Made by a program: the position numbers and the translations under genes. A stretch of DNA of 64,000 bases. Source: Pseudoxanthomonas suwonensis (lineage in GTDB: Bacteria > Pseudomonadota > Gammaproteobacteria > Xanthomonadales > Xanthomonadaceae). The DNA is taken from contig NZ_CP011144.1 in NCBI RefSeq assembly GCF_000972865.1, positions 310,001 to 374,000 on the forward strand, in the 5' to 3' direction. Below, in pieces: positions 2,421 through 58,497 of this stretch (the first letter of the stretch is position 1; the number at the start of each line of letters is the position of its first letter). Below the pieces are notes generated by a model. It was not told the origin of the DNA. It saw only the letters and a program-made list of their open reading frames with translations, and did no database searches.

Positions 2421-2517
2421 TGTAGGAGCCGGGTTCAGCCGGCGACATGCCACGCCGGCACAGGCGACTCCTTCATGGTTCCGACACCCGTGTCGCCGGC
2501 TGAACCCGGCTCCTACA
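2421..2517. repeat. TGTAGGAGC palindromic element (REP-like)
   Basis: An inverted repeat with both ends of the GCCGG-GTTCAG-CCGGC hairpin type, bounded by TGTAGGAGC and its complement. It fills the gap between gph and the synthase gene. Its right end overlaps gph, and the complement of its TGTAG end is the gph TAG stop codon. Confidence 0.9.
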
Positions 2518-3196
2518 GGCGGCGGGGCCAGAGGGCGGGTTGCAGCAGTTCCGGCGGCCGGTGGGCGATGGCGTCGGCCTGCCAGGTCTCAGGGTCCTCC
2601 CCGTCGAGCCGGTAGCCCCACAGCACCGCGATCGAAGGCATGCCCGCGGCGCGCGCGGCGGCCACGTCGCGCTCGTCGTCGCCGACGTACACGCACGCGC
2701 CCGGGTCCGTGCCCAGTCGCGCCGCCGCCTCGGTCAGCGGCAGCGGGTGCGGCTTCTTCTCGGCCAGGGTGTCGCCGCCGATCAGCACCGCGCAGCGCGA
2801 TTGCCAGCCCAGCCCGGCGACCACGTCGCGGGCCAGGTATTCGGGCTTGTTGGTGACGATGCCCCAGCGCGCACCGTCGTCCTCAAGCGCCTGCAACATG
2901 TCCGCCACGCCGTCGAACAGCACGCTGTGCCGGCCCAGTTCCTCGCGGTAGATGGCCAGGAACTCGGGCACCAGCGCCTCGCGCCCCCCGGCATCCAGCT
3001 CAGGGAAGCTGGCCGCGATCATCGCCCGCGCACCCTTGGATACGTGCTGGCGCAGCATCGCCAGCGTGGTCGGCGCGCGGTCGCGGGTGGCGAGCATGCG
3101 GTTGGCGGTGGCCAGCATGTCCGGCGCGCTGTCCAGCAGGGTGCCGTCCAGGTCGAACAGAGCCACGCGCGGGAAGCGCGATACCGCGACGCCCAT
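2513..3196 (-). CDS. gph: Phosphoglycolate phosphatase, HAD family
   Basis: Hydrolyses 2-phosphoglycolate, a product of DNA 3'-phosphoglycolate repair, to glycolate. The 227-residue HAD enzyme shows motif I FDLDGT with nucleophile Asp15 and Asp17, motif II in IVTNKPEY (about 121-128), and motif IV VGDDERDVAAARAAGM (about 171-186). It starts 2 bp after the ubiG stop, the classical ubiG-gph pairing of gammaproteobacteria, so it is probably co-transcribed with ubiG. The HAD family is broad and some members near ubiG act as general sugar-phosphate phosphatases. The TAG stop lies inside the adjacent palindromic repeat, so the last residues are set by where the repeat joins. Confidence 0.9.
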   Translation of the reverse strand: MGVAVSRFPRVALFDLDGTLLDSAPDMLATANRMLATRDRAPTTLAMLRQHVSKGARAMIAASFPELDAGGREALVPEFLAIYREELGRHSVLFDGVADMLQALEDDGARWGIVTNKPEYLARDVVAGLGWQSRCAVLIGGDTLAEKKPHPLPLTEAAARLGTDPGACVYVGDDERDVAAARAAGMPSIAVLWGYRLDGEDPETWQADAIAHRPPELLQPALWPRRL

Positions 3197-3198
3197 GC

Positions 3199-3918
3199 TC
3201 AGGCCTCCGCCTTGACCGCGCAGGCCAGGTAGTTGACCTCGGTGCGCCTGGACAGGCTCGCGCGTTGGCGCAGCGGGTCGTAGAACAGGCCGCTGACGTC
3301 CTCGATCTGCAGGTCCGCCTCACGCAGCCAGGCCGCCAGTTCGGAGGGACGGATGAAGTCGGCGTAGCGGTGCGTGCCCCGGGGCAGCAGTCGCGCCACG
3401 TACTCGGCGCCGACGATCGCCAGCGCGAACGCGGCCGGCGTGCGGTTGAGCGTGGACAGGAACAGGCGCCCGCCCGGACGCAGCAGCGTGGCGCAGGCGG
3501 CGACGATCGCGCCCGGGTCCGGCACGTGCTCCAGCATCTCCATGCAGGTGATCGCGCCGAAGCTGCCGGGCCGCTCGGCGGCCAGCGCCTCCACCGCCTT
3601 GACCTGGTAGTCGACCTGCACGCCCGATTCGAGCGTGTGCAGGCGCGCGACCTTGACCAGTTCCGGGGCCAGGTCGATCGCGGTGACCTGGGCGCCGGCC
3701 CTGGCCAGCGCCTCGCTGAGCAGGCCGCCGCCGCAGCCCACGTCCAACACCGGCAGGCCGGGCAGCGCCACGCGCCGCCTCACGTAGTCCAGGCGCACGG
3801 GGTTGAGCACGTGCAGCGCGCGCTGCGGGCCGTCCGGGTCCCACCAGCGGTTGGCCAAGGCGGCGAACTTGTCCAGTTCGGCCTGGTGGTAGTTGTGGGT
3901 CGTTTCGGCGTGGGTCAT
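3199..3918 (-). CDS. ubiG: Ubiquinone biosynthesis O-methyltransferase UbiG
   Basis: Performs both O-methylations of ubiquinone synthesis using S-adenosylmethionine, probably peripherally on the inner membrane. The 239-residue sequence begins with the UbiG-type lead [18 protein letters not shown] (about 14-31), then SAM motif [17 protein letters not shown] (about 58-73) and [13 protein letters not shown] (about 121-133). Upstream on the same strand is mtaD, which deaminates S-adenosylhomocysteine, the by-product of this enzyme, so the neighbourhood makes metabolic sense. A repeat-rich gap of 144 bp separates them. Downstream gph starts 2 bp later. Confidence 0.95.
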
Positions 3919-3936
3919 GGCTGCATTCTCGCTATG

Positions 3937-4061
3937 CCGTCGTTCCCGCGAAGCGCTTCAACACAGCCGAATGGCTGGTCTCGCGGGAACCCAGCGACTT
4001 TCATCCAGATCGCGGTTGCGTCACGGAAGACACTGGGTTCCCGCCTGCGCGGGAACGACGG
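3937..4061. repeat. Inverted repeat with CGTTCCCGCG ends
   Basis: Perfect 14-bp arms CCGTCGTTCCCGCG at 3937-3950 and its complement at 4048-4061 enclose smaller CGGGAACCCAG repeats. The element fills the mtaD-ubiG gap, ending 1 bp before the mtaD stop codon. Related GTCGTTCCCGCG/GGGAACCCAGTGACTT fragments recur near 11880, 14811 and 56426. Confidence 0.75.
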
Positions 4062-4062
4062 A

Positions 4063-5406
4063 CTACTGGATGCGGATCGTAGCAATCCGCGTGCGCCACT
4101 GGCGTGCATTGGCGATCAACGCCGCGGTGTCGATGTCCACCAGTTCACGCTGGTCCAGCTTGCGGCGGCCGGCAATCCACACGTCGGTCACCTGCTGGCG
4201 CCCGCTGGCGTAGACCAGCTGCGACAGCACGTGGTGCAGCGGCTGGGTCTCCAGCACCGACAGGTCGACGCAGGCCAGGTCGGCCTCCTTGCCCGGCTCG
4301 ATCGAGCCGATCCGCTCGCCGAAACCCAACGCGCGCGCGCCGCCCAGGGTCGCCGCGCGCAGCGCGCTGGCCGCGTCCAGCGCGGTAGCGTCGTTGGCCA
4401 CGGCCTTGGCCAGCAGCGCGGCGGTGCGCAGCTCGCCGAACATGTCCAGGTCGTTGTTGCTGGCGCAGCCGTCGGTGCCGATGGCCAGGTTCACCCCTGC
4501 CCGCTGCAGCGCGCAGGCCGGGCAGAAGCCGGAGGCCAGCTTGAGGTTGGACTCGGCGCAGTGCGCCACATGCACGCCGCGCTCGGCGCACAGGTGGATC
4601 TCGGCCTCGGTCAGCTGGGTCATGTGCACCGCGATCAGGCGCTCGCTGACCAGGCCCAGCCGGTCCAGCCGCGCCAGCGGGCGCTGGCCGTGTTCCTTCA
4701 GCGAGTCGGCGATTTCCTGCGCGGTCTCGTGGGTGTGCAGGTGGACCTGCATGTCGAGCTGATCGGCCAGCATCCGCACCCGCTCGAAGTTGGCGTCGCT
4801 GACAGTGTACGGCGCGTGCGGTGCGAAGGCGGTGGCGATCAGCGGGTCGGCGCGCCAGGCGTCGTGCACCTCGCCGGCCTTGTCGAAGTATTCGTCGTCG
4901 CCGGCGGCCCAGGCGGTGGGGAAGTTGATCACCGGCAGGCCGACCAGGGCGCGGAAGCCGTGCCGCTTGTACACGGCGGCCTGCACGTCGGGAAAGAAGT
5001 AGTTCTCGTTGGCGCAGGTGGTGCCGCCGCGCAGCATCTCGGCGATGGCCAGGGCCACGCCGTCGGCGACGAACTCCGGCCCGATCACCGCCGCCTCGAC
5101 CGGCCAGATGTGCTGCTGCAGCCAGGTCATCAGCGGCAGATCGTCGGCCACCCCGCGCAGCAGGGTCATCGGGTTGTGGGTGTGGGCGTTGACCAGGCCG
5201 GGGATCAGCGCCGCATCCGGCCGCTGCACCACCTCGGCCGCAGCGAAACGCGCCCGCGCCTCGGCCACCGGCAGCACGGCGACGATCACGCCTCCGGAAA
5301 CGGCGACGGCGTGGTCCTCCAGGACCACGCCGTGCGGTTCGACCGGGATGACCCAGCCGGCTTCGATCAGGAGGTCGCAGGCTTCACGCAGGCCGGCTTC
5401 GCCCAT
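4063..5406 (-). CDS. mtaD: 5-methylthioadenosine/S-adenosylhomocysteine deaminase (TRZ/ATZ amidohydrolase)
   Basis: An amidohydrolase-superfamily deaminase of 447 residues. The metal site is visible as NAHTHN (about 72-77), HLHTHE (about 221-226), AHCAESN and the late IGTDGCASNNDLDMF, in the order expected for MtaD/SAH deaminases. The reaction converts methylthioadenosine and S-adenosylhomocysteine to their inosine forms, salvaging products of methyltransferases and polyamine synthesis. It starts 3 bp after the efp stop and precedes ubiG and gph, suggesting an efp-mtaD-ubiG-gph transcript. Other TRZ/ATZ enzymes (guanine, cytosine or chlorohydrolases) share the fold. The start ATG at 5406 fits the usual N-terminal beta-sandwich. 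Confidence 0.88.
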   Translation of the reverse strand: MGEAGLREACDLLIEAGWVIPVEPHGVVLEDHAVAVSGGVIVAVLPVAEARARFAAAEVVQRPDAALIPGLVNAHTHNPMTLLRGVADDLPLMTWLQQHIWPVEAAVIGPEFVADGVALAIAEMLRGGTTCANENYFFPDVQAAVYKRHGFRALVGLPVINFPTAWAAGDDEYFDKAGEVHDAWRADPLIATAFAPHAPYTVSDANFERVRMLADQLDMQVHLHTHETAQEIADSLKEHGQRPLARLDRLGLVSERLIAVHMTQLTEAEIHLCAERGVHVAHCAESNLKLASGFCPACALQRAGVNLAIGTDGCASNNDLDMFGELRTAALLAKAVANDATALDAASALRAATLGGARALGFGERIGSIEPGKEADLACVDLSVLETQPLHHVLSQLVYASGRQQVTDVWIAGRRKLDQRELVDIDTAALIANARQWRTRIATIRIQ

Positions 5407-5409
5407 GGC

Positions 5410-5976
5410 TCACTTGACCCGCGAGACGTATTCGCCGGAGCGGGTGTCGACCTTGATCACCTCGTCCTGGCCGACGAACAGCGGCACGCGGACCACCGCG
5501 CCGGTCTCCAGGGTGGCCGGCTTGCCGCCGCCGCCGGAGGTGTCGCCGCGCACGCCCGGGTCGGTCTCGGTGATCTTCAGCTCGACGAAGTTCGGCGGGG
5601 TGACCTGGATCGGGGTGCCGTTCCACAGCGTGACCACGCAGGGCTCCTCGCCCTTCAGCCACTTCTCGGCGCCGCCCATGCCGGCCTTGTCGGCCTGGAC
5701 CTGCTCGAAGGTCTCCTGCTGCATGAAGTGCCAGTACTCGCCGTCGGAGTACAGGTACTGCATGTCGGTGTCGACCACGTCGGCGGCCTCGACCGAGTCG
5801 GTCGACTTCATGGTGATTTCCTGCACGCGGCCGCTCTTGATCAGGCGGTACTTCACCCGGGTGAAGGCCTGGCCCTTGCCCGGCTTGACGTATTCGGTGT
5901 CGCTGATGATCGCCGGCTCGTTGTTGATCAGGATCTTCATCCCGTTCTTGACGTCGTTCATGCCGTAAGAGGCCAT
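5410..5976 (-). CDS. efp: Translation elongation factor P
   Basis: Rescues ribosomes stalled at polyproline stretches by binding between the P and E sites. The 188-residue length and three beta-barrel layout are typical. The modification loop reads KPGKGQA with Lys34 in the position that is beta-lysylated in gammaproteobacteria. The divergent neighbour epmB encodes the lysine 2,3-aminomutase that makes the (R)-beta-lysine donor, so Lys34 lysylation is strongly implied; the ligase gene epmA is not in this window. The intergenic region shared with epmB (about 100 bp) should hold both promoters. Confidence 0.98.
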
Positions 5977-6079
5977 GGGAACTCCTTGGGTATGGCAGGG
6001 CCGCCGCGGAAGACGGCGGCCGGGCAGTTAGAATGTGGGGAGCCGCCGGAGCCCGGCAGGCGTGTCTTCCAGGCCCCAC

Positions 6080-7126
<1,047 letters not shown>

Positions 7127-7195
7127 GCCGCCGTTGCCTTTGCGGCGACGGCTGTGCGGGAACGGGAGCAAGAGCAGAGGCGGGTGCTTCGGCTT

Positions 7196-7326
7196 CGGAG
7201 GGGGCCGCCGTGCCCAGGGGGTCTGGCGCATCGCTCCGCTGCGGCGTCCTGCCTCCGAGTCGCGACCGCAGCACATCCCTGTGCTGCTTGCGCCAGACCC
7301 CCTGGGCACGACGGCCTCGGGAGCTA
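7196..7326. repeat. Long palindrome, copy 1 of 2
   Basis: Arms of 28 bp at 7203-7230 and 7289-7316 are complementary with one mismatch and enclose an inner hairpin (7268-7287, 8-bp stem, TCCC loop). A near-identical copy lies at 12059-12189. No gene is supported here; the small reading frames through it are the same in both copies only because the DNA is. It opens the 819-bp gene-free stretch between epmB and the PstS-like gene, which contains only repeats and a terminator hairpin. Confidence 0.85.
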
Positions 7327-7440
7327 TTGGGGGGCGTGGCTTCGATCAGGAAGCAACAGCAACGGCTAAGGCCCTCTCCCCGTCCCTCCCCTTCGCCTGC
7401 GGCGAAAGGGAGGGACCAAGCCCTCGACGGCGCTGCTTTC

Positions 7441-7534
7441 TGTAGGAGCGGGCATGACCGCGACACGGGCGTCGGAATCACGGGGGCGTCGCCTGGGCCA
7501 ACGGCGTCGGGTCGCGGTCATGCCCGCTCCTACA
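7441..7534. repeat. TGTAGGAGC palindromic element
   Basis: Both ends are of the GCGG-GCATGA-CCGC type. It is preceded at 7391-7413 by a CCCTCCCC...GGGAGGG hairpin. The same succession (long palindrome, CCCTCC hairpin, TGTAGGAGC element) is seen again at 12059-12393. Confidence 0.85.
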
Positions 7535-7599
7535 AAAGCCGTGCGCTGCTCAACGCCTGAACGAAGCCGCGACGCCAAAGCTCCCGGAGACGTGGCGGG

Positions 7600-7686: not shown

Positions 7687-7728
7687 CTCGCCGCGGCTCA
7701 GACCGAAGCCCACCACGCCCGGCGCTTT

Positions 7729-12296: not shown

Positions 12297-12513
12297 TGTA
12301 GGAGCCCAGCTTGCTGGCGACACGGGCGTCGGAATCACGAGGACGTCGCTTGGGCCGACGGCGTCGGGTCGCCGGCTGAACCCGGCTCCTACAACAGCCA
12401 CGGCGCGACCGATTTTCTGTAGGAGCTGACTTCAGTCGGCGACACGGGCGTCGAAACCACGAGGGCGTCGCCTGGGCCGACGGCGTCGGGTCGCGGTCAT
12501 GCCCGCTCCTACA
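12297..12513. repeat. Two TGTAGGAGC palindromic elements in tandem
   Basis: Element one (12297-12393) has a CCAGC-TT-GCTGG left hairpin and a GCCGG-type right hairpin. Element two (12418-12513) has a GACT-TC-AGTC left hairpin and a GCGG-GCATGA-CCGC right hairpin. The 121-bp step and the spacer (CAACAGCCACGGCGCGACC) match those of the arrays at 41.7 and 44.8 kb in reverse orientation. Confidence 0.85.
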
Positions 12514-16477: not shown

Positions 16478-16573
16478 TGTAGGAGCCGACTTCAGTCGGC
16501 GACACGGGCGTCGGAACCACGAGGGCGTCGCCTGGGCCGACGGCGTCGGGTCGCGGTCATGCCCGCTCCTACA
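16478..16573. repeat. TGTAGGAGC palindromic element between creC and creD
   Basis: Left end hairpin GCCGACT-TC-AGTCGGC (perfect 7-bp stem), right end of the GCGG-GCATGA-CCGC type. Its right end supplies the creC TAG stop. Located inside an operon-like gene series, it could attenuate read-through from creBC into creD. Confidence 0.9.
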
Positions 16574-18002
16574 ACAGCGGGAGGGACAGGCCGGCTTCGG
16601 CGCCGCCGGCGTCGCGGTTGGCCAGCCAGGCTTCGCCGCCGTGCAGCCGCGCCACCTCGCGCACGAACGGCAGGCCCAGGCCGGAACTGCGCTGGCCACC
16701 GGGCCGGGCCAGCGAATAGAACCGCTCGAACACCCGCGCGGCCGCGTAGTCCGGCACGCCCGGCCCTTGGTCGAGCACCCGCACCCGGGCATGGCCATCG
16801 CCAGCCTCCAGCACCAGCGCGACCGTGCCGCCTGCCGGCGAGAACCCGACCGCGTTGTCGAGCAGGTTGGCGATCGCCTGGCGCAGCAGGAAGGTATCGC
16901 CCTGGACCCGTAACGGGCGCTCGGCACCCTCGATCCGCAGCTGCAGCCGCGCGCCCGCCAGCCGCGGCCCGATCGCCTCCGCCGCCTCGCCCAGCAGCGC
17001 GGCCAGGTCCACCGGCTCGCGCCGCTGCAGCCAGCCGTGCTGCTCCACCTCGGCCAGCGCCAGCAGCTTGTCGATGGTCTCGGTCAGGCGCTGCTGCTGC
17101 TCCTGGATGTTGCGCGCGAAGCGCTGGCGCTCGGCCTCCGGCAACGGCTCCTGCAGCAGCTCGGCCGCGCCGCGGATCGCCGCCAGCGGGCCCTTCATCT
17201 CGTGGGTCAGCGATTGCACGTACTGCTCGACGTAGGCCTTGCCCTCGAGCTTGCTGCGCATGTCCTCCAGCGCCCGGCCCAGGTCGCCGATCTCGTCGCG
17301 GCGCGGCGGCGGCGGCGGCACCGGCTCGCCGGCGGCGACCGCCTGCGCGTAGCGGTTCAGCCGCCCGATCCCGCGCATCAGCCACGCCGTCATCAGCACG
17401 CCCACCAGCGCCGACAGCCCGATCAGCCAGGCGCCCTGGCGCATGATGCTGCGCTGGCTGGCCTCGATGAACGGCTCGATGCTGTGGTTGGGCTTGGCCA
17501 CGGTCAGCACGCCGATAAGGGTGTCCGGCGCCTGCGGGTCGTGGATCGGCGCGGCCACGTGCATCACCGTGCGCTCGCTGTCTGGCGCCTCCGGACTGGA
17601 ACGGGCGCCGTACTCGCCGCGCAGGGTGCGGTAGACATCGTTCCAGCGCGAGTTGTCGCGGCCCAGCTCGCGCCCTTCCGAGTCGAACACCACGATCCCG
17701 CGCGCGTCGGTGACGGTGACCCGGTAGTCGATGCTGCGCTTGGGGAAGCTCCAGATCATCGCCCCGGGGTCGCGCTCCCTGACCCGGGCCAGGTCGGCGG
17801 CGAAGCGGCCGTCGGCGATGCGCCCGGCCTTCATGTCGTCGGCGGCCATCGCCGCCAGCACGTTGGCGGTGTCGACCAGGGTCGACTCCATCGCCTGGCG
17901 CACGCCCGGCTTGACCTCGTCGACGAACACCCGCATCACGAAGAACGCGGCCAGGCCGACGATCAGGAAGAAACCCAGGAACAGGCGCAGTCCCAGCCGC
18001 AC
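16569..18002 (-). CDS. creC: Two-component sensor histidine kinase CreC
   Basis: 477 residues: TM1 about 5-25, a periplasmic sensor domain to about 185 with VTDARGIVVFDSEGRELG, TM2 about 190-208 and HAMP about 210-260. The kinase core has H-box SLTHEMKGPLAAIRG (about 269-283), N-box NLLDNAVGFSP, DQGPGVPD and GLGLPFVREVARLHGG. These features and the adjoining creB and creD identify CreC. The start is GTG immediately after the creB TGA stop (TGAGTG), implying translational coupling. The final TAG stop is contributed by the palindromic element downstream. Confidence 0.93.
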   Translation of the reverse strand: MRLGLRLFLGFFLIVGLAAFFVMRVFVDEVKPGVRQAMESTLVDTANVLAAMAADDMKAGRIADGRFAADLARVRERDPGAMIWSFPKRSIDYRVTVTDARGIVVFDSEGRELGRDNSRWNDVYRTLRGEYGARSSPEAPDSERTVMHVAAPIHDPQAPDTLIGVLTVAKPNHSIEPFIEASQRSIMRQGAWLIGLSALVGVLMTAWLMRGIGRLNRYAQAVAAGEPVPPPPPRRDEIGDLGRALEDMRSKLEGKAYVEQYVQSLTHEMKGPLAAIRGAAELLQEPLPEAERQRFARNIQEQQQRLTETIDKLLALAEVEQHGWLQRREPVDLAALLGEAAEAIGPRLAGARLQLRIEGAERPLRVQGDTFLLRQAIANLLDNAVGFSPAGGTVALVLEAGDGHARVRVLDQGPGVPDYAAARVFERFYSLARPGGQRSSGLGLPFVREVARLHGGEAWLANRDAGGAEAGLSLPLL

Positions 18003-22197: not shown

Positions 22198-22752
22198 ATG
22201 TGGGAATATCCCCCCATGCCGCGCAACCGCCTCCCCCCCTGGCACGAGGAGTTCGTCCTGCCCAACCGGCGGACGATCCTGATCCGTCCGGTCCGGCCGG
22301 AGGACGCCGCGCCGCTGCGGGGCGTGTTCGGGATGCTCGGGCCTGTGGAGGTCCGCGGCGGCTTCACCGAGGGCCACGACGAACTGGACGACGCGGTCGC
22401 CGCGCGCCTGTGCCGTCCGGACCCGAAGGCCGAACTGGTCCTGGTCGGCGCCGAACCGCTGCCGCCGGGCGAGGCGATGATCGCCGGCCTGGCCCGTGCC
22501 CGGATCGTGCCGGGCACCCGCGAGGCCGAGTACGCGATCCTGCTCGGCAACTACGTCGCCGGCCTGGGCCTGGGCCGGCACCTGATGCAGAAGCTGGTGA
22601 AGTGGTCGCGCGGGCGCTACCTGGACCGCCTCTACGGCGACACGCCCGACAGCAATGCGCCGATGCTCGACCTGGCCGCCTCGATGGGCTTCCGCCCCAG
22701 CCTCGAAGCCGGCGTCCCGCCCGGCCTGACCCGCCTGGTCCTCGACTTGTAG
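22198..22752 (+). CDS. GNAT family N-acetyltransferase
   Basis: 184 residues with IRPVRPEDAAPLRGVF (about 29-44) as the first strand and helix, and the acetyl-CoA P-loop in LLGNYVAGLGLGRHLMQKLV (about 120-139) matching Q/RxxGxG/A. The C-terminal DSNAPMLDLAASMGFRP is the usual end helix and strand. Such domains also occur at the end of acyl-CoA synthetase-type protein acetyltransferases (Pat), which the sequence resembles, but here it stands alone. Alternative start ATG 22216 (MPRNRLPPW) is equally plausible. The TAG stop is part of the TGTAGGAGCC repeat that follows. Confidence 0.8.
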   Translation: MWEYPPMPRNRLPPWHEEFVLPNRRTILIRPVRPEDAAPLRGVFGMLGPVEVRGGFTEGHDELDDAVAARLCRPDPKAELVLVGAEPLPPGEAMIAGLARARIVPGTREAEYAILLGNYVAGLGLGRHLMQKLVKWSRGRYLDRLYGDTPDSNAPMLDLAASMGFRPSLEAGVPPGLTRLVLDL

Positions 22753-22985
22753 GAGCCGGGTTCAGCCGGCGACAAGGGCGTCGGAGTCACGAGGACGTCG
22801 CCTGTGCCAACGGCATCGTGTCACGCGCAAGCCCGGAAGCCGTGGCACCCGATCCCCGTCGTCCCGGCGTTCGCCGGGACGACGGGTGGATGTAGGAGCA
22901 CAGCTTGCTGGCGACACGGGCGTCATCCGCCAGGACGTCGCCTGTGCCGACGGCATCGCGTCGCCGGCTGAACCCGGCTCCTACA
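22748..22985. repeat. Two TGTAGGAGC elements, the first interrupted
   Basis: The first (from 22748) has a GCCGG-type left end but lacks its right half; a GTCGTCCCGGCGTTCGCCGGGACGACG hairpin fills that place. The second (22891-22985) is complete, with a CAGC-TT-GCTG left end and a GCCGG-type right end, and stops about 48 bp before mfd. Confidence 0.8.
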
Positions 22986-26571: not shown

Positions 26572-27134
26572 CGGCACCGGCGACATCGCGCAGACGCGTC
26601 GGAACCACGAGGGCGTTGACTCGGCAGACGGCGTCGGGTCGCGGTCATGCCCGCTCCTACAAGAAGGGCACGGCGTGGCGGTTCTCCTGTAGGAGCGGAC
26701 TTCCGTCCGCGACACGGGTGTCGGGATCACGAGGGCGTCGCCTGGGCCGACGGCGTCGGGTCGCGGTCATGCCCGCTCCTACAAGAAGGGCACGGCGTGG
26801 CGGTTCTCCTGTAGGAGCGGACTTCCGTCCGCGACACGGGTGTCGGGATCACGAGGGCGTCGCCTGGGCCGACGGCGTCGGGTCGCGGTCATGCCCGCTC
26901 CTACAAGAAGGGCACGGCGTGGCGGCTCTCCTGTAGGAGCGGACTTCAGTCCGCGACACGGGCGTCGGGATCACGAGGGCGTCGCCTGGGCCGACGGCGT
27001 CGGGTCGCGGTCATGCCCGCTCCTACAACAGCAGCGGCGCGCCTCTTCTGTAGGAGCTGACTTCAGTCGGCGACACGGGCATCGGAAACACGAGGGTGTC
27101 ACCTGGGCCGACGACGTCGGGTCGCGGTCATGCC
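26572..27134. repeat. Array of TGTAGGAGC elements with 122-bp period
   Basis: Starts with a degenerate element ending at 26661, then units at 26688, 26810 and 26932 spaced exactly 122 bp, and a diverged unit at 27049-27134. The first three share GCGGAC-TTCC-GTCCGC or GCGGACT-TC-AGTCCGC left hairpins, a GCGG-GCATGA-CCGC right end and the spacer AAGAAGGGCACGGCGTGGCG. The 609-bp mfd-permease interval holds nothing else recognisable. Confidence 0.95.
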
Positions 27135-27178
27135 CGCTCCTGCAACGGCGGACGCGTCGGTGGCGTGGTCGGTGCCGG

Positions 27179-31868: not shown

Positions 31869-31963
31869 TGCAGGAGCGGGCATGACCGCGACACGGGCGC
31901 CGGAACCACGAGGGCATCGCCTGTGCCGACGGCGTCGGGGTCGCGGTCATGCCCGCTCCTACA
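31869..31963. repeat. TGTAGGAGC palindromic element
   Basis: Both ends GCGG-GCATGA-CCGC type; the left terminus reads TGCAGGAGC instead of TGTAGGAGC. It lies upstream of the PLD gene and beyond the end of the M13 peptidase gene. Confidence 0.8.
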
Positions 31964-41672: not shown

Positions 41673-42099
41673 TGTAGGAGCCGGGTTCAGCCGGCGACAC
41701 GACGACCTCGGCGCAGGCGACGCCCTCATGTTCCCGACGCCCGTGTCGCCGACTGAAGTCAGCTCCTACAGAAAAGCGGCCGCGCCGCGGCTGTTGTAGG
41801 AGCCGGGTTCAGCCGGCGACACGACGCCCTCGGCGCAGGCGACGCCCTCGTATTCCCGACGCCCGTGTCGCCGACTGAAGTCAGCTCCTACAAAGAGCGG
41901 CCGCGCCGTGGCTGTTGTAGGAGCCGGGTTCAGCCGGCGACACGACGCCCTCGGCACAGGCGACGCCCTCATGTTCCCGACGCCCGTGTCGCCGACTGAA
42001 GTCAGCTCCTGCCGGGTTCAGCCGGCGACACGACGCCCTCGGCACAGGCAACGCCCTCATGGCTCCGACGCCCGTGTCGCCAGCAAGCTGGCTCCTACA
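41673..42099. repeat. Tandem TGTAGGAGC elements (about 122-bp step)
   Basis: Units begin at 41673, 41795 and 41916, each with a GCCGG-type left end and a GCCGACT/AGTC-type right end, separated by AAAGCGGCCGCGCCGCGGCTGTTG-like spacer of which up to 20 bases are shared. The third is fused, by loss of the TACA end, to a fourth whose right end is GCCAGCAAGCTGGC type. The 597-bp lipoprotein-nfi interval contains nothing else evident. Confidence 0.95.
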
Positions 42100-44774: not shown

Positions 44775-44993
44775 TGTAGGAGCCGGGCTTGCCCGCGACG
44801 CGACGTCGTCGGCACAGGCGACGCCCTCGGGATTCCGACGCCCGTGTCGCCGACTGAAGTCAGCTCCTACAAAGAGCGGTCGCGTCGTGGCTGTGTTGTA
44901 GGAGCCGGGTTCAGCCGGCGACCCGACGCCGTCGGCCCAGGCGATGCCTTCCTGATTCCGACGCCCATGTCGCCAGCAAGCTGGGCTCCTACA
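44775..44993. repeat. Two tandem TGTAGGAGC elements, 122-bp step
   Basis: Units 44775-44871 (left GGGC-TT-GCCC, right AGTC type) and 44897-44993 (left GCCGG type, right CCAGC-AA-GCTGG type), with the same AAGAGCGGTCGCGTCGTGG spacer as the array at 41.7 kb. It occupies most of the 400-bp aqpZ-phaZ interval; about 120 bp before phaZ remain without a recognised feature. Confidence 0.92.
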
Positions 44994-51977: not shown

Positions 51978-53783
51978 ATGCGCCACACCCTGCTCGCCGT
52001 CGCCCTCCTCGCCAGCCTGGCCGCCTGCCAGAAGGCCGAGTCGCCTACCGCGCCCGCCGGCACCAGCACGGTGGCCGCCGCCGACACCGCCGCCGACGCC
52101 GCCTTCGCCGACCTGTCGCAGCGCGCGCTCGACGGCTGGCTGCGGTCCTCGCCGGTCCGCGCCACCCGGATCGGCGAGCACCGTTACGACAGCGAACTGG
52201 ACGACCTCGGCGACGACAGCCGGCGCGAGCGCCTGGCGTTCGCCCGCACGATCCTCGCCGAGCTGGAGGCGATGGACATCGCCGGGCTGTCGCGCGAGAA
52301 CCAGGTCGACGCCACAATCCTGCGCAACCAACTGCGCTACGAGCTGTGGATCGGCGAGACCCTGCAGAGCTGGGCCACCGACCCGCAGATCTACAACAGC
52401 CTGGCCGGCAGCGCGATCTACGGCCTGATGGCGCGCGAGTTCGCGCCGCTGCCCGAGCGGCTGCAGTCGGCGACCGCGCGCATGGAGAAGATCCCCGCGC
52501 TGCTGGCGCAGGCGCGCGCCAACCTCGATCCGGCGCGCGTGCCGAAGGTCCATGCCGAGACCGTGGCCAGGCAGAACGCCGGCATCCTGCGCATCGTCGA
52601 CAACTACATCACCCCGAACCTGGACCAGTTGGGCGACGCCGACCGGCAGCGGGCGGATGCGGCGATCGAAGGCCTGAAACAGGCGGTGGCCGAGCACCAG
52701 CAATGGCTGGACGGGACCCTGGTGCCCAATGCCAGGGGCGAGTTCCGCATCGGTGCCGAGCTGTACGACCAGAAGCTGCAGTTCGCCCTGCTGTCCTCGC
52801 TGTCGCGCGCGGAGATCAAGCAGCGCGCCGAGGCCGAACTGGCGCGCGTGCGCGGGGAGATGTACGGCATCGCCCAGCAGGTGCTGGCCGGCAGGCCGGA
52901 CGCGCCCGAACTGCCCGGGAACCCCACCCCCGCGCAGCAGCAGGCGGCGATCGAGGCGGCGCTGGAACTGGCCTACGCCGAGCGCCCGGCGCGCGACCGG
53001 GTCGTGGCCGACGCCCAGGCCGCCCTTGATCGCGCCACCGAGTTCGTCCGCGCCAAGGATCTGGTGACCTTGCCCGACGCGCCGGTGGAGATCATCGAGA
53101 TGCCCGAGTTCCAGCGTGGCGTGGCGGTGGCCTATGCCGACTCGCCCGGGCCGCTGGACAAGAACCTGAAGACCTTCTACGCGGTCTCGCCGATTCCGGA
53201 GGACTGGAGCCAGGCGCAGGTCGACTCGTTCCTGCGCGAATACAACTCGCGCATGATCGAACTGCTGAGCATCCACGAGGGCACCCCGGGCCACTACCTG
53301 GAAGGCTGGCACTCGGCCAAGTTCCCCTCGACTCTGCGCGCGGTGCTGCGCTCGGGCATGTTCGCCGAGGGCTGGGCGGTCTACACCGAGAAGATGATGG
53401 CCGACGCCGGCTACCTGGACAACGACCCGCTGTTCCGCCTGGTGCAGCTGAAGTTCTACCTGCGCACGATCGCCAACGCGATCCTCGACCAGGGCGTGCA
53501 CGTGGACGGCTGGACCCGCGAGCAGGCGATGGACCTGATGGTCAACCAGACCTTCCAGCAGGAGAGCGAGGCGGCCGGCAAGTGGACCCGCGCGCAGCTC
53601 ACCTCCGCGCAGCTGCCGACCTACTTCGTCGGCGTGCAGGAGCACTTCGACACGCGCGCGGCGGTCGAGCAGAAACTGGGCGCGGACTTCGACCTGAAGG
53701 CCTACCACGACCAGGTGCTGTCCTACGGCGCCCCGCCGGTGCGCTTCGTGCGCCAGCTGATGCTGGACGAGCCGATCAAGTAG
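51978..53783 (+). CDS. DUF885 lipoprotein (putative metallohydrolase)
   Basis: 601 residues with a lipobox signal (LLAVALLASLAACQK, Cys about 17), so an exported lipoprotein. The DUF885 zinc-peptidase-like motif is SIHEGTPGHYLEGWHS (HExxxxH, about 436-451), with the later FAEGWAVYTEKMM and YLRTIANAILDQGVH blocks also conserved. Such proteins resemble M3/M32-type helical peptidases and may hydrolyse peptides in the periplasm; catalytic activity is inferred. The N-terminal 30 residues after the lipobox are low-complexity Ala/Thr. ATG 51978 chosen over 51945 because it yields the signal directly. Confidence 0.85.
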   Translation: MRHTLLAVALLASLAACQKAESPTAPAGTSTVAAADTAADAAFADLSQRALDGWLRSSPVRATRIGEHRYDSELDDLGDDSRRERLAFARTILAELEAMDIAGLSRENQVDATILRNQLRYELWIGETLQSWATDPQIYNSLAGSAIYGLMAREFAPLPERLQSATARMEKIPALLAQARANLDPARVPKVHAETVARQNAGILRIVDNYITPNLDQLGDADRQRADAAIEGLKQAVAEHQQWLDGTLVPNARGEFRIGAELYDQKLQFALLSSLSRAEIKQRAEAELARVRGEMYGIAQQVLAGRPDAPELPGNPTPAQQQAAIEAALELAYAERPARDRVVADAQAALDRATEFVRAKDLVTLPDAPVEIIEMPEFQRGVAVAYADSPGPLDKNLKTFYAVSPIPEDWSQAQVDSFLREYNSRMIELLSIHEGTPGHYLEGWHSAKFPSTLRAVLRSGMFAEGWAVYTEKMMADAGYLDNDPLFRLVQLKFYLRTIANAILDQGVHVDGWTREQAMDLMVNQTFQQESEAAGKWTRAQLTSAQLPTYFVGVQEHFDTRAAVEQKLGADFDLKAYHDQVLSYGAPPVRFVRQLMLDEPIK

Positions 53784-53898
53784 GCATTGATGGTGCCGGC
53801 CTGGATGCCGGCAGACGGGATCCCTGGTTCGGGCGGCCCGGCGGAAATTCCGCCGGGTCGTTTCCCTTGGCCACTCCCCGCGCTTCTGCGTCGGTTTC

Positions 53899-53996
53899 TG
53901 TAGGAGCTGACTTCAGTCGGCGACACGGGCGTCGGGACCATGAGGGAGTCGCCTGTGCCGACGGCGTCGCGTCGCCGACTGAAGTCAGCTCCTACA
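53899..53996. repeat. TGTAGGAGC palindromic element
   Basis: Both ends of the GACT-TC-AGTC hairpin type, between the DUF885 gene and the convergent serine hydrolase gene, ending 25 bp from the latter's stop. Confidence 0.88.
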
Positions 53997-54020
53997 TGAA
54001 GAGCAATCGCGCCGGCAACC

Positions 54021-55649
54021 TCAGCGCACCGGCTTCAGCACCAGGTCGTGGAAGTCGAAGCTGAAGTCGGTCAGGTCCGAGGCCGCCTCCATCCGTGCCT
54101 CGCGCACCTTGCCGTCGGCGTCGAGCACGAAGGTGACGAAGGCGTCGCCATTGAGCGTGCGGTCGTCCCACTTCACCAGGAAGGTGTCGTGCTGCCAGTG
54201 CTGCATCGTGCCGGCGAGCAGCGGGCTGGGCTTGAACCGCATCCGCAGCCGGGAACCGTCCTGCGCCACTTCCACGTCGCCGTACCAGGCGTCGCGGTAG
54301 GTCCCCGCATATCCGGACAGCGGCAGCGACGGCTTCGAGCGCGGGTCACGCGCGGCCACGCGCTCCTGCCATGCGGCATCGGCCTTCGCCCTGGTCTTCG
54401 CGGCCGATGCGGCATAGGCGGCAATCCAGTCGGTGCGCTGCGCCGGCTGCAGGAACGCGTCGAGGATCTGCAGGGTCAGCGCGTTGAACGCACCGCCGAC
54501 CTCCTGGTTGGTCAGCACCACGATGCCCAGGTCGCGGCCGGGCACCAGGGTGACCCGCGAGACCATGCCCGGCCAGCCGCCGGTGTGCCAGACCAGCTTC
54601 TCGCCGCGGAAGGTCGAGGTGATCCAGCCCTCGCCGTAGCCGAGGAAGTCCGGCCTGGCCGGCGCCAGTTCCGGCACCGACGGCTCGGGGATGTTCATCG
54701 GCGAGTGCAACGACCACATCGCCTTGTGCCGCTGCGGCGAGAACAGGCGCTGCTCGCGTCCCTGCGCGTCGGTGTAGCTGCCGCCGGCCAGCTGCGCCTG
54801 CATCCAGCGGGTCATGTCGTGCACGCTGGAGTACAGGCCGCCGGCGCCGGCGGCGTTGTGCCAGGTCAGCGGGAAGGTCGTGCGCAGGTCGGTGAAGTCG
54901 GCCCTGGCGTGCCCGGTGGCCGCGTTGTCGCCCGGCCGCAGCGCGTCGGCGTTGAAGCGGGTATCGGCCATGCCCAGCGGGTCGAAGAAGCGCTGCTGCA
55001 GGAACTGCGCGTAGGACTGGCCCGAGGCCTGCTCGATCACCAGGGTGGCGGCCGCGTAGAGGATGTTGTCGTAGGCGTAGCGCTCGCGCAGTCCGGTCTT
55101 CAGCGGCACGTCCTTCAGCCGTTGCACCACCTCCTCGGTGCTGTAGCCGCTGCCTGGCCAGAACAGCAGGTCGCCGGCGCCCAAGCCCAGGCCGCTGCGG
55201 TGGGTCAGCAGGTCGCGGAGGCGCATCTCCCGGGTCACGTACGGGTCCGACATGCGAAACCACGGCAGGTGGTCGACCACCCGGTCGTCCAGTGACAGCT
55301 TGCCCTCGTCGGCCAGGATCGACAGCGACGCGGCGGTGAAGGCCTTGGTGTTGGAAGCGATCGCGAACAGGGTGCGCTCGTCCACCGGCGCCGGCCTGCC
55401 CAGTTCGCGCACGCCCCAGCCGCGCTCCAGCAGCACCTGGCCGTCCTTGACCACGGCTATCGCGATGCCCGGCACCTCGAAGCGCTCGCGCACCTGTTCG
55501 ACCCAGGCGTCCAGTTCGGCCGGATCGAGCGCGGCGGCATCCGACGCTGCAACGGTCGCCGGCGTATCGGCTGCGATGCCCGGCAATGGCGCCAGCAGGG
55601 ACAGGCCGAGCACGAGCAGGCAGCGGAACGACGGGGAAGGCAGGCGCAT
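54021..55649 (-). CDS. Serine hydrolase, beta-lactamase family, exported
   Basis: 542 residues: signal peptide (FRCLLVLGLSLLAPLPGIAA), then a PF00144 domain with SxxK in AIASNTKAFTAA (about 105-116), Tyr-x-Asn in RYAYDNILYAAA (about 193-204) and HTGGWPGMVSRV (about 382-393) as third motif. A C-terminal DUF3471-type beta domain follows about residue 440 (LPLSGYAGTYRDAWYGDVEV). Similar proteins act as D-amino-acid peptidases, esterases or beta-lactamase-like enzymes on peptide-like substrates. ATG 55649 is used; ATG 55670 adds seven residues. Unrelated in detail to the hydrolase at 19.6 kb. Confidence 0.87.
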   Translation of the reverse strand: MRLPSPSFRCLLVLGLSLLAPLPGIAADTPATVAASDAAALDPAELDAWVEQVRERFEVPGIAIAVVKDGQVLLERGWGVRELGRPAPVDERTLFAIASNTKAFTAASLSILADEGKLSLDDRVVDHLPWFRMSDPYVTREMRLRDLLTHRSGLGLGAGDLLFWPGSGYSTEEVVQRLKDVPLKTGLRERYAYDNILYAAATLVIEQASGQSYAQFLQQRFFDPLGMADTRFNADALRPGDNAATGHARADFTDLRTTFPLTWHNAAGAGGLYSSVHDMTRWMQAQLAGGSYTDAQGREQRLFSPQRHKAMWSLHSPMNIPEPSVPELAPARPDFLGYGEGWITSTFRGEKLVWHTGGWPGMVSRVTLVPGRDLGIVVLTNQEVGGAFNALTLQILDAFLQPAQRTDWIAAYAASAAKTRAKADAAWQERVAARDPRSKPSLPLSGYAGTYRDAWYGDVEVAQDGSRLRMRFKPSPLLAGTMQHWQHDTFLVKWDDRTLNGDAFVTFVLDADGKVREARMEAASDLTDFSFDFHDLVLKPVR

Positions 55650-55834
55650 GGGGCGGGATCCGGAAGGCATGAAGGGCCGATTCTAGGGGCTGCGCAACGG
55701 GACGACGCAGTGACGGAAGCCGGGACCCTCCGGCCGGCATCCGGGCCGCCCGTCCCTCCGGCTCACCGCCGCTTTACACGGTGCCGCCCACGCTGGCCCC
55801 CGTCCTGTTCCCGACCGCCTGCGGAGATCGACCC

Positions 55835-56260
55835 ATGCCCCTTCCGGCCACGACCAGCAGCACCATCATCCCCTGCCTGCGCTACCGCGACGCCCACGCC
55901 GCCATCGAATGGCTGTGCCGCGCCTTCGGCTTCGAGAAGCACGCCGTCTACGCCGACGGCGACACCGTCCACCACGCGCAGCTGACCTGGGGCAACGGCA
56001 TGCTCATGCTCGGCTCGGCCCACACCGTCAGCGAATGGAGCGAACAGATCGTCCAGCCCGACGAGATCGGGATGCGCGAGACGCAGAGCCCCTGCGTGAT
56101 CGTCGCCGACGCCGACGCGCATTACGCCCGGGCGAAGGCCGCCGGCGCCGCCATCGTCCAGGACATCGCCGACCAGGACTATGGCGGGCGCGGGTACTCG
56201 TGCCGGGATGTGGAAGGGCATCTTTGGTGGTTCGGCAGCTATGACCCATGGAAGGATTGA
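55835..56260 (+). CDS. VOC family protein (glyoxalase/bleomycin-resistance fold)
   Basis: 141 residues: beta-alpha-beta-beta-beta units starting SSTIIPCLRYRDAHAAIEWL (about 6-25) and VIVADADAHYARAKAAGAAI (about 90-109), ending YSCRDVEGHLWWFGSYDPW. The PhnB-like/AraC-associated glyoxalase layout is clear; the C-terminal Glu before GHLWW is a usual metal ligand. Substrate unknown. ATG 55835 follows GGAGATCGACCC. A decayed copy of its 3' end follows in tandem. Confidence 0.87.
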   Translation: MPLPATTSSTIIPCLRYRDAHAAIEWLCRAFGFEKHAVYADGDTVHHAQLTWGNGMLMLGSAHTVSEWSEQIVQPDEIGMRETQSPCVIVADADAHYARAKAAGAAIVQDIADQDYGGRGYSCRDVEGHLWWFGSYDPWKD

Positions 56261-56330
56261 AGCCACGCCAGCCAACGATTTCCGCAGCGCGCGGCGGCGC
56301 GTTCTTCCGCACTGGCCACTCAGACCACAT

Positions 56331-56416
56331 CAGGGCACGGTTCGACAGCCATGCCCCCTGGAAGGACTGAGATCGCGCCGGTTACCTGATTCCGCAGCGC
56401 ATGGCGGCGCGTTCCT
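56331..56416 (+). pseudogene. Tandem remnant of the VOC gene 3' end
   Basis: The segment ending CCCCTGGAAGGACTGA (TGA at 56368-56370) corresponds to the intact gene's last codons (TGACCCATGGAAGGATTGA, TGA at 56258-56260). The next stretch, ATTCCGCAGCGC-GGCGGCGCGTTC, matches 56279-56308. The step is about 110 bp. It is too short to code and represents a duplicated tail. The 315-bp VOC-DUF72 interval otherwise holds only the CCCCGCGAAGGCGGGG repeat. Confidence 0.65.
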
Positions 56417-56425
56417 CTCACTCTT

Positions 56426-56462
56426 GCCGTCATCCCCGCGAAGGCGGGGATCCAGTGACTTC
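56426..56462. repeat. CCCCGCG hairpin repeat with CCAGTGACTT tail
   Basis: CATCCCCGCGAAGGCGGGGA followed by TCCAGTGACTT, the same family as at 3937, 11874 and 14811. Confidence 0.7.
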
Positions 56463-56575
56463 AGGCCATTGCAGGCGAATCACTCTGCAACCGCCATCCG
56501 GACCACATGATGGCGCGACAGGGCGCGCGCCACGGCGGCTATGATCCGCGACAGGAAAGTCGATAGCGACCACCC

Positions 56576-57403
56576 ATGCACGACCTGTTCGCCCCCGCTC
56601 CCTCCACCGCTCCCGCCACGCGCATCCACGTCGGCATCGGCGGCTGGACCTATGCGCCATGGCGCGGCGGCGCGTTCTATCCGCCCGGGCTGGTGCAACG
56701 CCGCGAGCTGGAGTACGCCAGCCGCCAGCTGACCGCGATCGAGATCAATGGCACCTACTACGGCACGCAGAAGCCGGACACGTACGCGAAATGGCGCGAC
56801 GAAACTCCGGCCGGCTTCATGTTCACCGCCAAGGCGCCGAAGCGGATCATGGCCAGCCGCAGCCTGGCCGGCACCGGCGCGCAGATCGACGACTTCGTCG
56901 GCGGCATCGCCACGCTTGGCGACCGGCTCGGTGCGCTGCTGTGGCAGTTCGACCGCGGCCAGGCGCCGGCGCTGGACCAGCTGGCCGCGTTCCTGCAACT
57001 GCTGCCCGCACAGGCGGATGGGCGGCGCCTGCGCCACGCACTGGAGCTGCGCGACCCGGCCGTGTTCGACCGCGACCTGCTGGCGCTGCTGCGCGAGCGC
57101 AACGTGTCGCTGGTGTTCGCCGGCTCGGACGAACATCCTTCCTTCGACGACCTCACCGCCGACTTCGTCTATGCGCGCCTGATGCGCGCCCGGACCGGGC
57201 TGGCGCAGGGCTACCCGGACGCGGAACTGGACGCCTGGGCGCGCCGCGCCCGCGACTGGGCCGAGGGCGGCGATCCGGACGACCTGCCGCACGTGGCCAC
57301 CCCGCAACCGGACGCGAAGGCACGCGAAGTGTTCGTGTTCTTCATCGCCAGCGCGAAGGAGCGCAACCCCGCCGCAGCCCAGGCGCTGATCCAGCGTCTG
57401 TAG
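56576..57403 (+). CDS. DUF72 family TIM-barrel protein
   Basis: 275 residues. Conserved DUF72 features are IHVGIGGWTYAPWRGGAFYP (about 17-36), TAIEINGTYYGTQKPDTYAK (about 53-72) and FMFTAKAPKRIM (about 81-92), with the late EVFVFFIASAKERNPAAAQA. The fold is a TIM barrel (YecE-like) of unknown activity. The TAG stop is supplied by the adjacent TGTAGGAGC element. No operon partner. Confidence 0.9.
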   Translation: MHDLFAPAPSTAPATRIHVGIGGWTYAPWRGGAFYPPGLVQRRELEYASRQLTAIEINGTYYGTQKPDTYAKWRDETPAGFMFTAKAPKRIMASRSLAGTGAQIDDFVGGIATLGDRLGALLWQFDRGQAPALDQLAAFLQLLPAQADGRRLRHALELRDPAVFDRDLLALLRERNVSLVFAGSDEHPSFDDLTADFVYARLMRARTGLAQGYPDAELDAWARRARDWAEGGDPDDLPHVATPQPDAKAREVFVFFIASAKERNPAAAQALIQRL

Positions 57404-57616
57404 GAGCACAGCTTGCTGGCGACACGGGCGTCGGAAACATGCGGACGTCACCTGGGTCGACGGCGTCGGGTCGCCGGCTGAACCCGGCTCCTACAACAAC
57501 CACGGCGCCGCCGCTCTTCTGTAGGAGCTGACTTCAGTCGGCGACACGGGCGTCGGAATCATGAAGGCGTCGCCTGAGCCGACGGCGTCGCGTCGCGGGC
57601 AAGCCCGGCTCCTACA
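57399..57616. repeat. Two tandem TGTAGGAGC elements, 121-bp step
   Basis: 57399-57495 (CAGC-TT-GCTG left, GCCGG-type right) and 57520-57616 (AGTC-type left, GGGCAAGCCC-type right), with a CAACCACGGCGCCGCCGCTC spacer. The first one contributes the stop codon of the DUF72 gene. Confidence 0.92.
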
Positions 57617-57646
57617 GAAAGCGGGATTCCGTGCGAGGATGCGGCC

Positions 57647-58297
57647 ATGGCCGACGGATTCCGGCGCACGCCCGCCTCCTCCCGCTATGCGCTGGTCCTG
57701 CTCGGCCTGTTCGCCGCGGTCTGGATCGCGCTGGCGATCTCGCCCTGGTACCGCCAGGACTGGGCACTGGAGAACGTGCTGGTGGTGGTGGCCGTGCCGG
57801 TGCTGGCTTGGGGCTGGCGCCGGATGCCGCTGACCCGGCTCAGCTACACTTGCCTGTTCGTGTTCGGCGTGCTGCACGAGATCGGCGCGCACTACACCTA
57901 CGCCGAAGTGCCCTACGACGCCTTCTTCCAGAGCACCTTCTGGTTCTCACTGGACGCCGCGCTCGGTCTTGAGCGCAACTCCTTCGACCGGCTGGTGCAT
58001 TTCCTCTATGGCGCGCTGGTGACTCCGGCCTGCATCGAACTGCTCGACCGGGTCGCGCCGCCGCGGGGGATCTGGCGCTACGTGCTGCCGGTCAGTTTCA
58101 TCATGTCGCACTCGCTGCTGTTCGAGATGTTCGAGTGGCTGGCCGCCAGCGTGTTCGGCGGCGACCTTGGCCAGGCCTACCTCGGCACCCAGGGCGATGA
58201 ATGGGACGCGCAGAAGGACATGCTGATGGCCACCCTCGGCTCGGCGCTTACGGTATGCGTGCTGGGCATGCGCGGCTGGCTCGCGCCGCGCGTGTAG
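57647..58297 (+). CDS. DUF2238 membrane protein (YjdF-like)
   Basis: 216 residues with about six TM helices (first YALVLLGLFAAVWIALAISP, about 14-33). The family blocks HEIGAHYTYAEVPYD (about 81-95) and ERNSFDRLVHFLYGALVTPA are present, ending GDEWDAQKDMLMATLGSALT. Function unknown in all members; the conserved Glu/His/Asp on the TM faces could bind a metal. TAG stop lies in the TGTAGGAGCC repeat end. Confidence 0.9.
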   Translation: MADGFRRTPASSRYALVLLGLFAAVWIALAISPWYRQDWALENVLVVVAVPVLAWGWRRMPLTRLSYTCLFVFGVLHEIGAHYTYAEVPYDAFFQSTFWFSLDAALGLERNSFDRLVHFLYGALVTPACIELLDRVAPPRGIWRYVLPVSFIMSHSLLFEMFEWLAASVFGGDLGQAYLGTQGDEWDAQKDMLMATLGSALTVCVLGMRGWLAPRV

Positions 58298-58497
58298 GAG
58301 CCGGGCCTGCCCGCGACGCGACGCCGTCGGCGCAGGCGACGCCCCCGCGGCTCCCAAAATGGGGTCAGGTTCATTTTTCCGCGACTTTCCGACACGGCCA
58401 TTGGGACGGGAAAATGAACCTGACCCCATTTTGGCGGGCACGGGCGAAAACCCATCTGGTTCCGACGCCCGTGTCGCCAGCAAGCTGGGCTCCTACG
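58293..58497. repeat. TGTAGGAGC element split by a second palindrome
   Basis: Outer halves form a usual element (GGGC-CT-GCCC left end, CCAGC-AA-GCTGG right end). Its middle is interrupted by about 110 bp containing another inverted repeat at 58354-58444. It fills most of the 309-bp DUF2238-EamA interval; the remaining 110 bp before the EamA start show no further feature. Confidence 0.9.
58354..58444. repeat. Perfect 24-bp-arm inverted repeat (MITE/REP-like insertion)
   Basis: Arms 58354-58377 and 58421-58444 are perfect complements containing GGGGTCAGGTTCATTTT and its reverse, around a 43-bp centre. This sequence type recurs across Xanthomonad genomes as REP-like elements (from memory). It lies nested in the TGTAGGAGC element, so it arrived later. 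Confidence 0.92.

Follow-up and report, generated by a model that had tools for sequence, protein, structure and literature searches.

The 64,000-nucleotide window analysed here (Pseudoxanthomonas suwonensis, assembly GCF_000972865.1, contig NZ_CP011144.1, positions 310,001 to 374,000 of the forward strand) carries members of a large family of REPINs (REP doublets forming hairpins, REP standing for repetitive extragenic palindromic). They are non-coding elements in which paired, inverted GTAG-type REPs surround a conserved asymmetric body of ~56 bp. About nine hairpin types occur at the ends of this one body, the two halves of the stems change together, and the ends of a single element are often unlike. 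We consider it probable, with good confidence, that these REPINs are copied by a REP-associated tyrosine transposase (RAYT), and that their left and right ends have been switched separately on one body by 'orthoswitch', a change of REP class discussed below.

Anatomy, end types and stem pairing

With at most one mismatch, TGTAGGAGC matches the window 50 times against a shuffle mean of 8.05, and none of 100 shuffles reaches 50. Exact TGTAGGAGC ends number 39 (20 on the forward and 19 on the reverse strand) and group into 12 clusters; the family reported by the initial annotation, which gave about 14 sites, is therefore real. Both ends are exact in 16 elements of 94-98 bp, to which one 184-bp composite can be added. 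The layout is TGTAGGA-GC-hairpin-GC-GAC, then the body, then the same motif inverted. The body has GCGACACGGGCGTCGG on its left side and, mostly on its right side, GCGAC[A/C/G]CGACGCCG; its direction, from left end to right end, defines the strand of an element. The genome-wide collection that had been proposed was made on the host genome (one 3.89 Mb contig, labelled G000) with the pattern TGTAGGAGCN{64,94}GCTCCTACA. It returned 478 complete elements, mostly 94-98 bp long, against 0 matches genome-wide for the reversed control pattern.

Unless stated otherwise, the counts below come from 80 stretches plus the window, amounting to 1.664 Mb or 43% of the genome, with 676 ends and 263 complete elements. 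According to crude gene calls based on GC3 (G+C content at third codon positions), 196 of the 263 elements lie outside genes, 46 partly inside and 21 mostly inside. Two inverted REPs are thus found in an element of ~100 bp, present in many, chiefly extragenic copies, in a genome that has a cognate RAYT flanked by the same REPs (types A2 and A only, not every type of the genome). The REPINs of Bertels and Rainey are reportedly similar in copy number and extragenic location. The tabulated types read GTAG-GA-stem-GAC, the arrangement that defines GTAG-1 and GTAG-2 REPs in the available part of PMC3733652, two families that are indistinguishable here.

The hairpin types and their counts on the two sides of the body are as follows:

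A, CGGGTTYAGCCG: 43 left, 188 right
A2, YGGCTTCAGCCG: 10 left, 22 right
B, YGACTTCAGTCG: 149 left, 6 right
C, GGGCATGACC: 34 left, 44 right
C2, CGGCATGACG: 9 left, 0 right
D, CGGGCTTGCCC: 0 left, 29 right
E, xCAGCTTGCTG: 33 left, 1 right
F, CCACTTCAGTGG: 20 left, 0 right
G, GGACTTCMGTCC: 3 left, 1 right
Other: 28 left, 44 right; a further 12 ends are unassigned

Type C is the most evenly distributed, and G is too rare to judge. The commonest named combinations among the 263 elements, given as left/right, are B/A (55), B/D (25), C/C (23), A/A (21), E/A (20) and F/A (12), and all four pairings of left B or C with right C or D are found, C/D once. The six types listed initially are all present in the window, where the two ends are indeed unlike in 13 of the 16 complete elements and alike in three (those beginning at 2421, 7441 and 53899). 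The interchangeability claimed for them was confirmed only in that many types sit on one body; most types prefer one side and a few combinations dominate, so that the ends are modular rather than freely interchangeable. Free interchange is ruled out by the side bias and by the association of left with right types, although the P value of the latter (1e-31) is inflated by the tandem copies kept in both tables.

Conservation of pairing supports the view that the folded end structure is under selection. Among the distinct hairpins of the genome, 124 of 148 cells are paired in the 12-base class (0.838, against 0.670 shuffled; 0 of 2000 shuffles as high), 90 of 108 in the 11-base class (against 0.699; 0 of 2000) and 11 of 12 in the six 10-base hairpins (against 0.569; 9 of 2000). 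Double changes are seen directly: between C and C2 the outer pair turns from G-C to C-G with the loop unchanged, and F, B and G have CC/GG, CG/CG and GG/CC around a common AC-TTCA-GT core. A cross-genome set of 63 distinct 24-mers was taken from 50 of 80 RAYT loci of several genera, picked by flanks alone and without a requirement for pairing. After removal of one sequence containing N, 97.3% of 372 cells were paired in these 62 REPs against 82.9% in shuffles that leave relatedness in place (0 of 500 as high), and cells changed on both sides numbered 43 against 8.6. Sliding the partners lowers pairing to at most 48.9%. Less striking were the counts of further pair types (9 against 8.4; 241 of 500 shuffles as high) and of pairs changed on both sides (4 against 2.3; 14 of 500). 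The earlier statement that stem halves change together is thus borne out both within the genome and across genomes. Isolated 30-base end hairpins fold as DNA no better than shuffles (five tested, z -1.60 to 1.28); four whole elements fold better (z -10.36 to -2.60). Hence the fold energy of a single end is not evidence for structure, and covariation is.

The RAYT transposase and its flanking REPs

Two matches to Y1_Tnp were found in the genome, at loci L009 and L010. The L009 gene, near 2.795 Mb, is a RAYT: it matches NF047646 (REP_Tyr_transpos) with 129.6 bits at a cut-off of 80, and its score for the IS200/IS605 transposase proper (NF033573) is 32.7 bits, under the cut-off of 55. Its product matches the solved TnpArep structure 4er8 (E 6.2e-5) and carries, by inspection, the HUH motif DHVH and the tyrosine motif ARYIIANP, whose tyrosine we take from the family to be catalytic. 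The nearest named RAYTs are those of P. daejeonensis (85% identical) and P. kaohsiungensis (80%). Tandem elements of A2/A type flank the gene on both sides, with the hairpins TGGCTTCAGCCG and CGGGTTCAGCCG and rare variants. A mobilising enzyme beside such elements, which the initial annotation had suggested looking for, is therefore present; that it moves them is likely from this association, and the recombination proposed alongside is only suggested. The second gene (L010:1165-1872, near 2.490 Mb) was rejected as mobiliser, as it scores 72.7 bits, below the RAYT cut-off, and none of these REPs adjoins it. Inverted AAATGAACCTGACCCC repeats stand on both of its sides, an arrangement like that of the relatives flanked by terminal inverted repeats in PMC3733652.

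Elements occur in six of 17 genomes of the genus (478, 39, 74, 98, 11 and 2 copies). NF047646 scores above cut-off in all six and in four of the 11 without elements (Fisher P 0.035); it is possible that these four carry different REP classes. In G000, G003 and G004 the RAYT sits between one and the same pair of neighbours, which by inspection we take to be a PilB/GspE-like ATPase and a TolQ-like gene. The G005 contig begins just upstream of its RAYT and shares the downstream YbgC-like neighbour. The hairpins beside these same-place RAYTs of G000, G003 and G004 differ by species, likewise those in G002 and G005: they are GGACTTCAGKCC and GGGCAYGACC in G002, CGGTCTTGCCG in G003, mainly CCATCYTCATGG and CGATTCATCG in G004, and CCACTTCAGGGG in G005. 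Among the elements listed for G003 and G004, the hairpins are mainly those flanking the RAYT, and the two ends of the G003 elements listed (36 of 74) match or differ by one or two bases.

Some of the RAYT loci compared show particular features. At L054 (G003:C11) the gene stands in opposite orientation between the same neighbours, with REPINs on both sides. A second RAYT-like gene at L068 (G008:C22) reads ARAIVANP where five other aligned proteins have ARYI/VANP, and may have lost its catalytic tyrosine. The RAYT at L058 (G008:C23) has REPs of two different kinds at its flanks, TGTAGGAGGCC...GGCCGAC and TGTAGGAGCGGC...GCCGCGAC, and the same pair adjoins a RAYT in Xanthomonas sp. XNM01 (L130).

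Origin of the unlike ends

The reading we prefer runs as follows. The REPINs are non-autonomous, and their copying most likely takes place in single-stranded form and is carried out by the L009 RAYT, which probably recognises GTAGGAGC...GCGAY together with a correctly paired hairpin while tolerating many stem sequences. In an 'orthoswitch', the source copies next to the RAYT acquire REPs of another class, which would then spread while the old class lingers; heterodimers would result where the left end and the right end of one body switched at different times. Newer copies have probably also replaced older ones at their sites or converted them there, although the sites compared below include both body-keeping and body-changing cases. 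Element anatomy, conserved pairing, side preference, the association with a RAYT and the species-specific REPs beside RAYTs are direct observations, whereas mobilisation as single strands, the order of switching and replacement in place are inferred.

Consistent with one body bearing many hairpins, the consensus bodies of the main combinations are nearly identical over 55-56 bases, A/A and A2/A2 having a variant right arm, and bodies of different combinations often lie no farther apart than bodies of the same combination (C/C to B/C 0.076, within C/C 0.091; both from a 22% sample). The fraction of copies whose nearest body has the same left type is 0.41 (0.285 when shuffled), and for the right type it is 0.459 (0.354 when shuffled; 193 of 247 left/right elements, 46-base bodies only, neighbours within 1.5 kb excluded). 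Linkage between hairpin and body is therefore present but weak, perhaps in part because bodies of 46 bases offer little resolution. Recombination between ends is suggested by this pattern; replacement of the source copy by 'orthoswitch' could explain much of it.

The elements of the window, some of which have counterparts in related species, are:

2421..2517, minus: REPIN A/A, CGGGTTCAGCCG at both ends
7441..7534, plus: REPIN C/C, GGGCATGACC at both ends
12297..12393, plus: REPIN E/A, CCAGCTTGCTG / CGGGTTCAGCCG
12418..12513, plus: REPIN B/C, TGACTTCAGTCG / GGGCATGACC, in tandem with 12297..12393
16478..16573, plus: REPIN B/C; orthologous gap has no exact REP end in G003, G004, G005 and G006, five REP ends in G002
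22748..22756, plus: type A REP end, partner end degenerate
22891..22985, plus: REPIN E/A; same gap in G004 has E plus a D-like end
26653..26661, minus: type C REP end, no exact partner
26688..26783, plus: REPIN G/C, GGACTTCCGTCC / GGGCATGACC, part of a tandem array
26810..26905, plus: REPIN G/C, tandem copy 122 bp beyond the 26688 element
26932..27027, plus: REPIN G/C, GGACTTCAGTCC, tandem copy
27049..27144, plus: REPIN with one type B end, other end TGCAGGAGC
31869..31963, plus: REPIN C/C, left end TGCAGGAGC; orthologous G005 gap has no exact REP end
41673..41770, minus: REPIN B/A
41795..41892, minus: REPIN B/A, tandem copy
41916..42099, minus: 184-bp composite, resembles two fused elements
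44775..44871, minus: REPIN B/D, TGACTTCAGTCG / CGGGCTTGCCC
44897..44993, minus: REPIN E/A
53899..53996, plus: REPIN B/B; same gap has B/B in G005 and D/E in G004, junctions not demonstrably identical
57399..57495, plus: REPIN E/A
57520..57616, plus: REPIN B/D
58293..58497, no strand: REP end CGGGCCTGCCC and distant mutated partner end CGTAGGAGC

At 26688-27027, 41673-42099 and other loci the elements are repeated in tandem about every 122 bp. The outside flanks of sampled elements share a consensus (CCGCtCTTC before the left end, ACAGCcgCGgCGCGgCcGC after the right end), and so the duplicated tandem unit seems larger than the REPIN. The TAG of the REP GTAG forms the stop codon of the RAYT (L009:1915-1917) and of five coding-like open reading frames of the window (22198-22752, 56576-57403, 57647-58297, 16569-18002 and 2513-3196); such stop codons are no more frequent at REPs than at TGTAG sites elsewhere (45 of 676 against 98 of 1320).

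Among 89 unique comparisons of sites between species, the relative was without an exact GTAGGAGC in 47 and had one in 42, a share of occupied sites that is biased upwards because the G002 and G004 stretches were mostly chosen around listed elements. In a looser first comparison, 18 of 62 occupied rows matched a single locus of G004 (C11 near 514431), repeatedly and at low identity; in the final comparison each locus of a relative was admitted only once, and the flank criteria were tightened. Six cross-species pairs exceed the maximum summed flank similarity of 3000 random pairs (1.33): L092 (1.68), L083 (1.56), W16478 with G002 (1.44), L080 (1.43), L104 (1.42, left flank only) and L028-18716 (1.40). 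Hairpins are kept only at L028-18716, which is C/C in both species with one base changed. The facing hairpins differ in the other five, although W16478 and its G002 counterpart each include a C end. At L092 (0.75), W16478 (0.72), L080 (0.80) and L028 (0.88) the better body match is the one in the same orientation. With both orientations represented among the similar-flank sites, the ends may have changed in place or elements may have re-inserted at the same position.

A serious but less likely possibility is that copies already inserted trade their end types, through gene conversion, template switching or an end swap catalysed by the RAYT, so that hairpins of old insertions are rewritten in place and do not come with new copies. 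The weak hairpin-body linkage and the existence of all four combinations of left B or C with right C or D speak for it. So do L080, which is A/A in G000 and has CGATTCATCG at both ends in G004 with junction similarities of 0.81 and 0.62, and L092, C/C in G000 with CGATTCATCG twice in G004 and junctions of 0.76 and 0.92. The L080 bodies are 0.80 identical in the same orientation, a value reached by 4% of G004 bodies in the null (itself included), and at 23 sites with full elements in both species the mean best body identity is 0.730 against a random-orientation null of 0.701 (8 of 200 as high). At 22891-22985, G004 shares the left E and differs at the right, and the G000 copy has beside its A hairpin the G typical of D (20 of 27 D hairpins). 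On the other hand, just six pairs have flanks above the random maximum, L104 by its left flank alone, and two of the six match better when flipped. The L092 body is no closer than unrelated bodies (26% of the null as high), the junctions at 22891-22985 (0.50 and 0.54) are not beyond chance, and the neighbouring base of A hairpins is in any case highly variable (A 57, C 54, G 21, T 1).

Selection for heterotypic ends is somewhat unlikely as the explanation. Unlike ends would be kept from pairing with each other, so that each folds as a RAYT substrate or the element escapes cruciform nucleases. The calculated cost of folding the ends separately in single-stranded DNA is 14.8 kcal/mol for heterotypic (n=144) and 28.8 kcal/mol for homotypic elements (n=54), type 'o' and elements not read as left/right being left out of this and the homotypic table (198 of 263 elements used). 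Bertels and Rainey proposed, in the available part of PMC3116915, that a long hairpin is unlikely and a 'clover' likely to be recognised by RAYTs; the lower cost would favour the 'clover', and its calculated halving suggests a reason why heterodimers are common. Unlike REPs alternate beside RAYTs in other genera too (e.g. L146, L148, L165, L195), which makes heterodimers not special to this genus. Yet like REPs flank many other RAYTs, the listed G003 elements have matching or near-matching ends, and the energy difference follows from the sequences and is no sign of selection. A general advantage of mixed ends is also opposed by the homotypic pairs, 54 against 24.0 expected under independence (198 elements), chiefly C/C (23 against 3.9).

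Several observations weigh against the reading that we prefer. The homotypic excess is one of them. The L083 and L104 bodies match better when flipped, making re-insertion rather than end switching possible there, and the reversed RAYT of G003 may likewise reflect inversion or re-insertion. Of the abundant types only A flanks the RAYT of this genome, B, C, D and E flanking none, and 10 of the 11 complete G005 elements have B- or C-like hairpins instead of the RAYT-flanking CCACTTCAGGGG. A bolder version appears doubtful: that REPIN ends are exchangeable modules rewritten in place, each end separately, by the RAYT system or by recombination it provokes. The whole population would then change recognition class in concert, with sites and bodies kept, and heterotypic ends would be maintained since they prevent end-to-end pairing and leave a transposase-competent fold.

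We find it improbable that the structures are kept for a role of their RNA at the ends of genes, whether as bidirectional terminators, attenuators or stabilisers of mRNA, with mobility incidental. Convergent gene pairs enclose 98 of 215 elements, an excess over their share of gaps of at least 100 bp (139 of 526), and divergent pairs enclose few elements (14 of 215, with 89 of 526 gaps), each tandem copy being counted separately on crude gene calls; avoidance of promoter regions alone would produce the same bias. The window contains no match to an Rfam family at gathering score, and neither the conserved GTAGGA outside the stem nor side-specific asymmetric ends are expected of terminators. Neutral drift of a single ancestral end into chance variants, the condition that the initial annotation had set for its own refutation together with uncompensated stem mutation, is extremely unlikely: rare unpaired singleton hairpins exist in the genome, but pairing lies far above shuffles there and across the 62 REPs, and the types are discrete, abundant and mostly side-specific.

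Comparison with known REP systems

In the literature searched, which lay mostly outside subscription journals and does not establish absence from print, 'orthoswitch' occurred only in PMC3686654 among 18 papers listed by one search, and of three papers that hold both 'Pseudoxanthomonas' and 'repetitive extragenic palindrom' none is, by title, about these elements. As in the SBW25 REPINs of Pseudomonas fluorescens, in the accessible text of PMC3116915, there are two inverted REPs, tandem clusters, a genomic RAYT and reported compensatory change to either hairpin side; unlike those, stems of about nine types occur here on one body and often differ between its ends. The REPs of Di Nocera et al. 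2013 (PMC3733652), as far as that source was available, share the GTAG tag, the unpaired dinucleotide before and the conserved trinucleotide after the stem (as GTAG-1 or GTAG-2), complementary stem changes, heterodimers and head-to-head dimers. The same text reports unlike REPs at about the same recB site in two Xanthomonas species and sees no obvious explanation for the heterodimer preference; side specificity of end types relative to the body distinguishes the present family from its account.

In vitro, TnpAREP reads GTAG plus a folded single-stranded hairpin, tolerating stem sequence in part while loop or bulge bases matter (excerpted text of Corneloup et al. 2021, PMC8266576), a recognition like that proposed here. 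Those enzymes came from E. coli, S. maltophilia and Marinomonas and not from the present clade, and the excerpt does not treat unlike ends of one element. A further parallel is the 'orthoswitch' of Nunvar et al. 2013 (PMC3686654, seen in part), in which syntenic RAYTs have different REP classes and old classes persist beside new; here, in contrast to the published case, each end of a REPIN appears to switch on its own, with the body kept. The kind of element is thus already known, and what appears worth following is the apparently independent switching of the two ends of a shared body, together with the candidate in-place changes. In G000 and its relatives a single body, some nine end hairpins, one RAYT and several candidate orthologous sites come together, a combination that lends itself to tests by biochemistry and strain-level sequencing.

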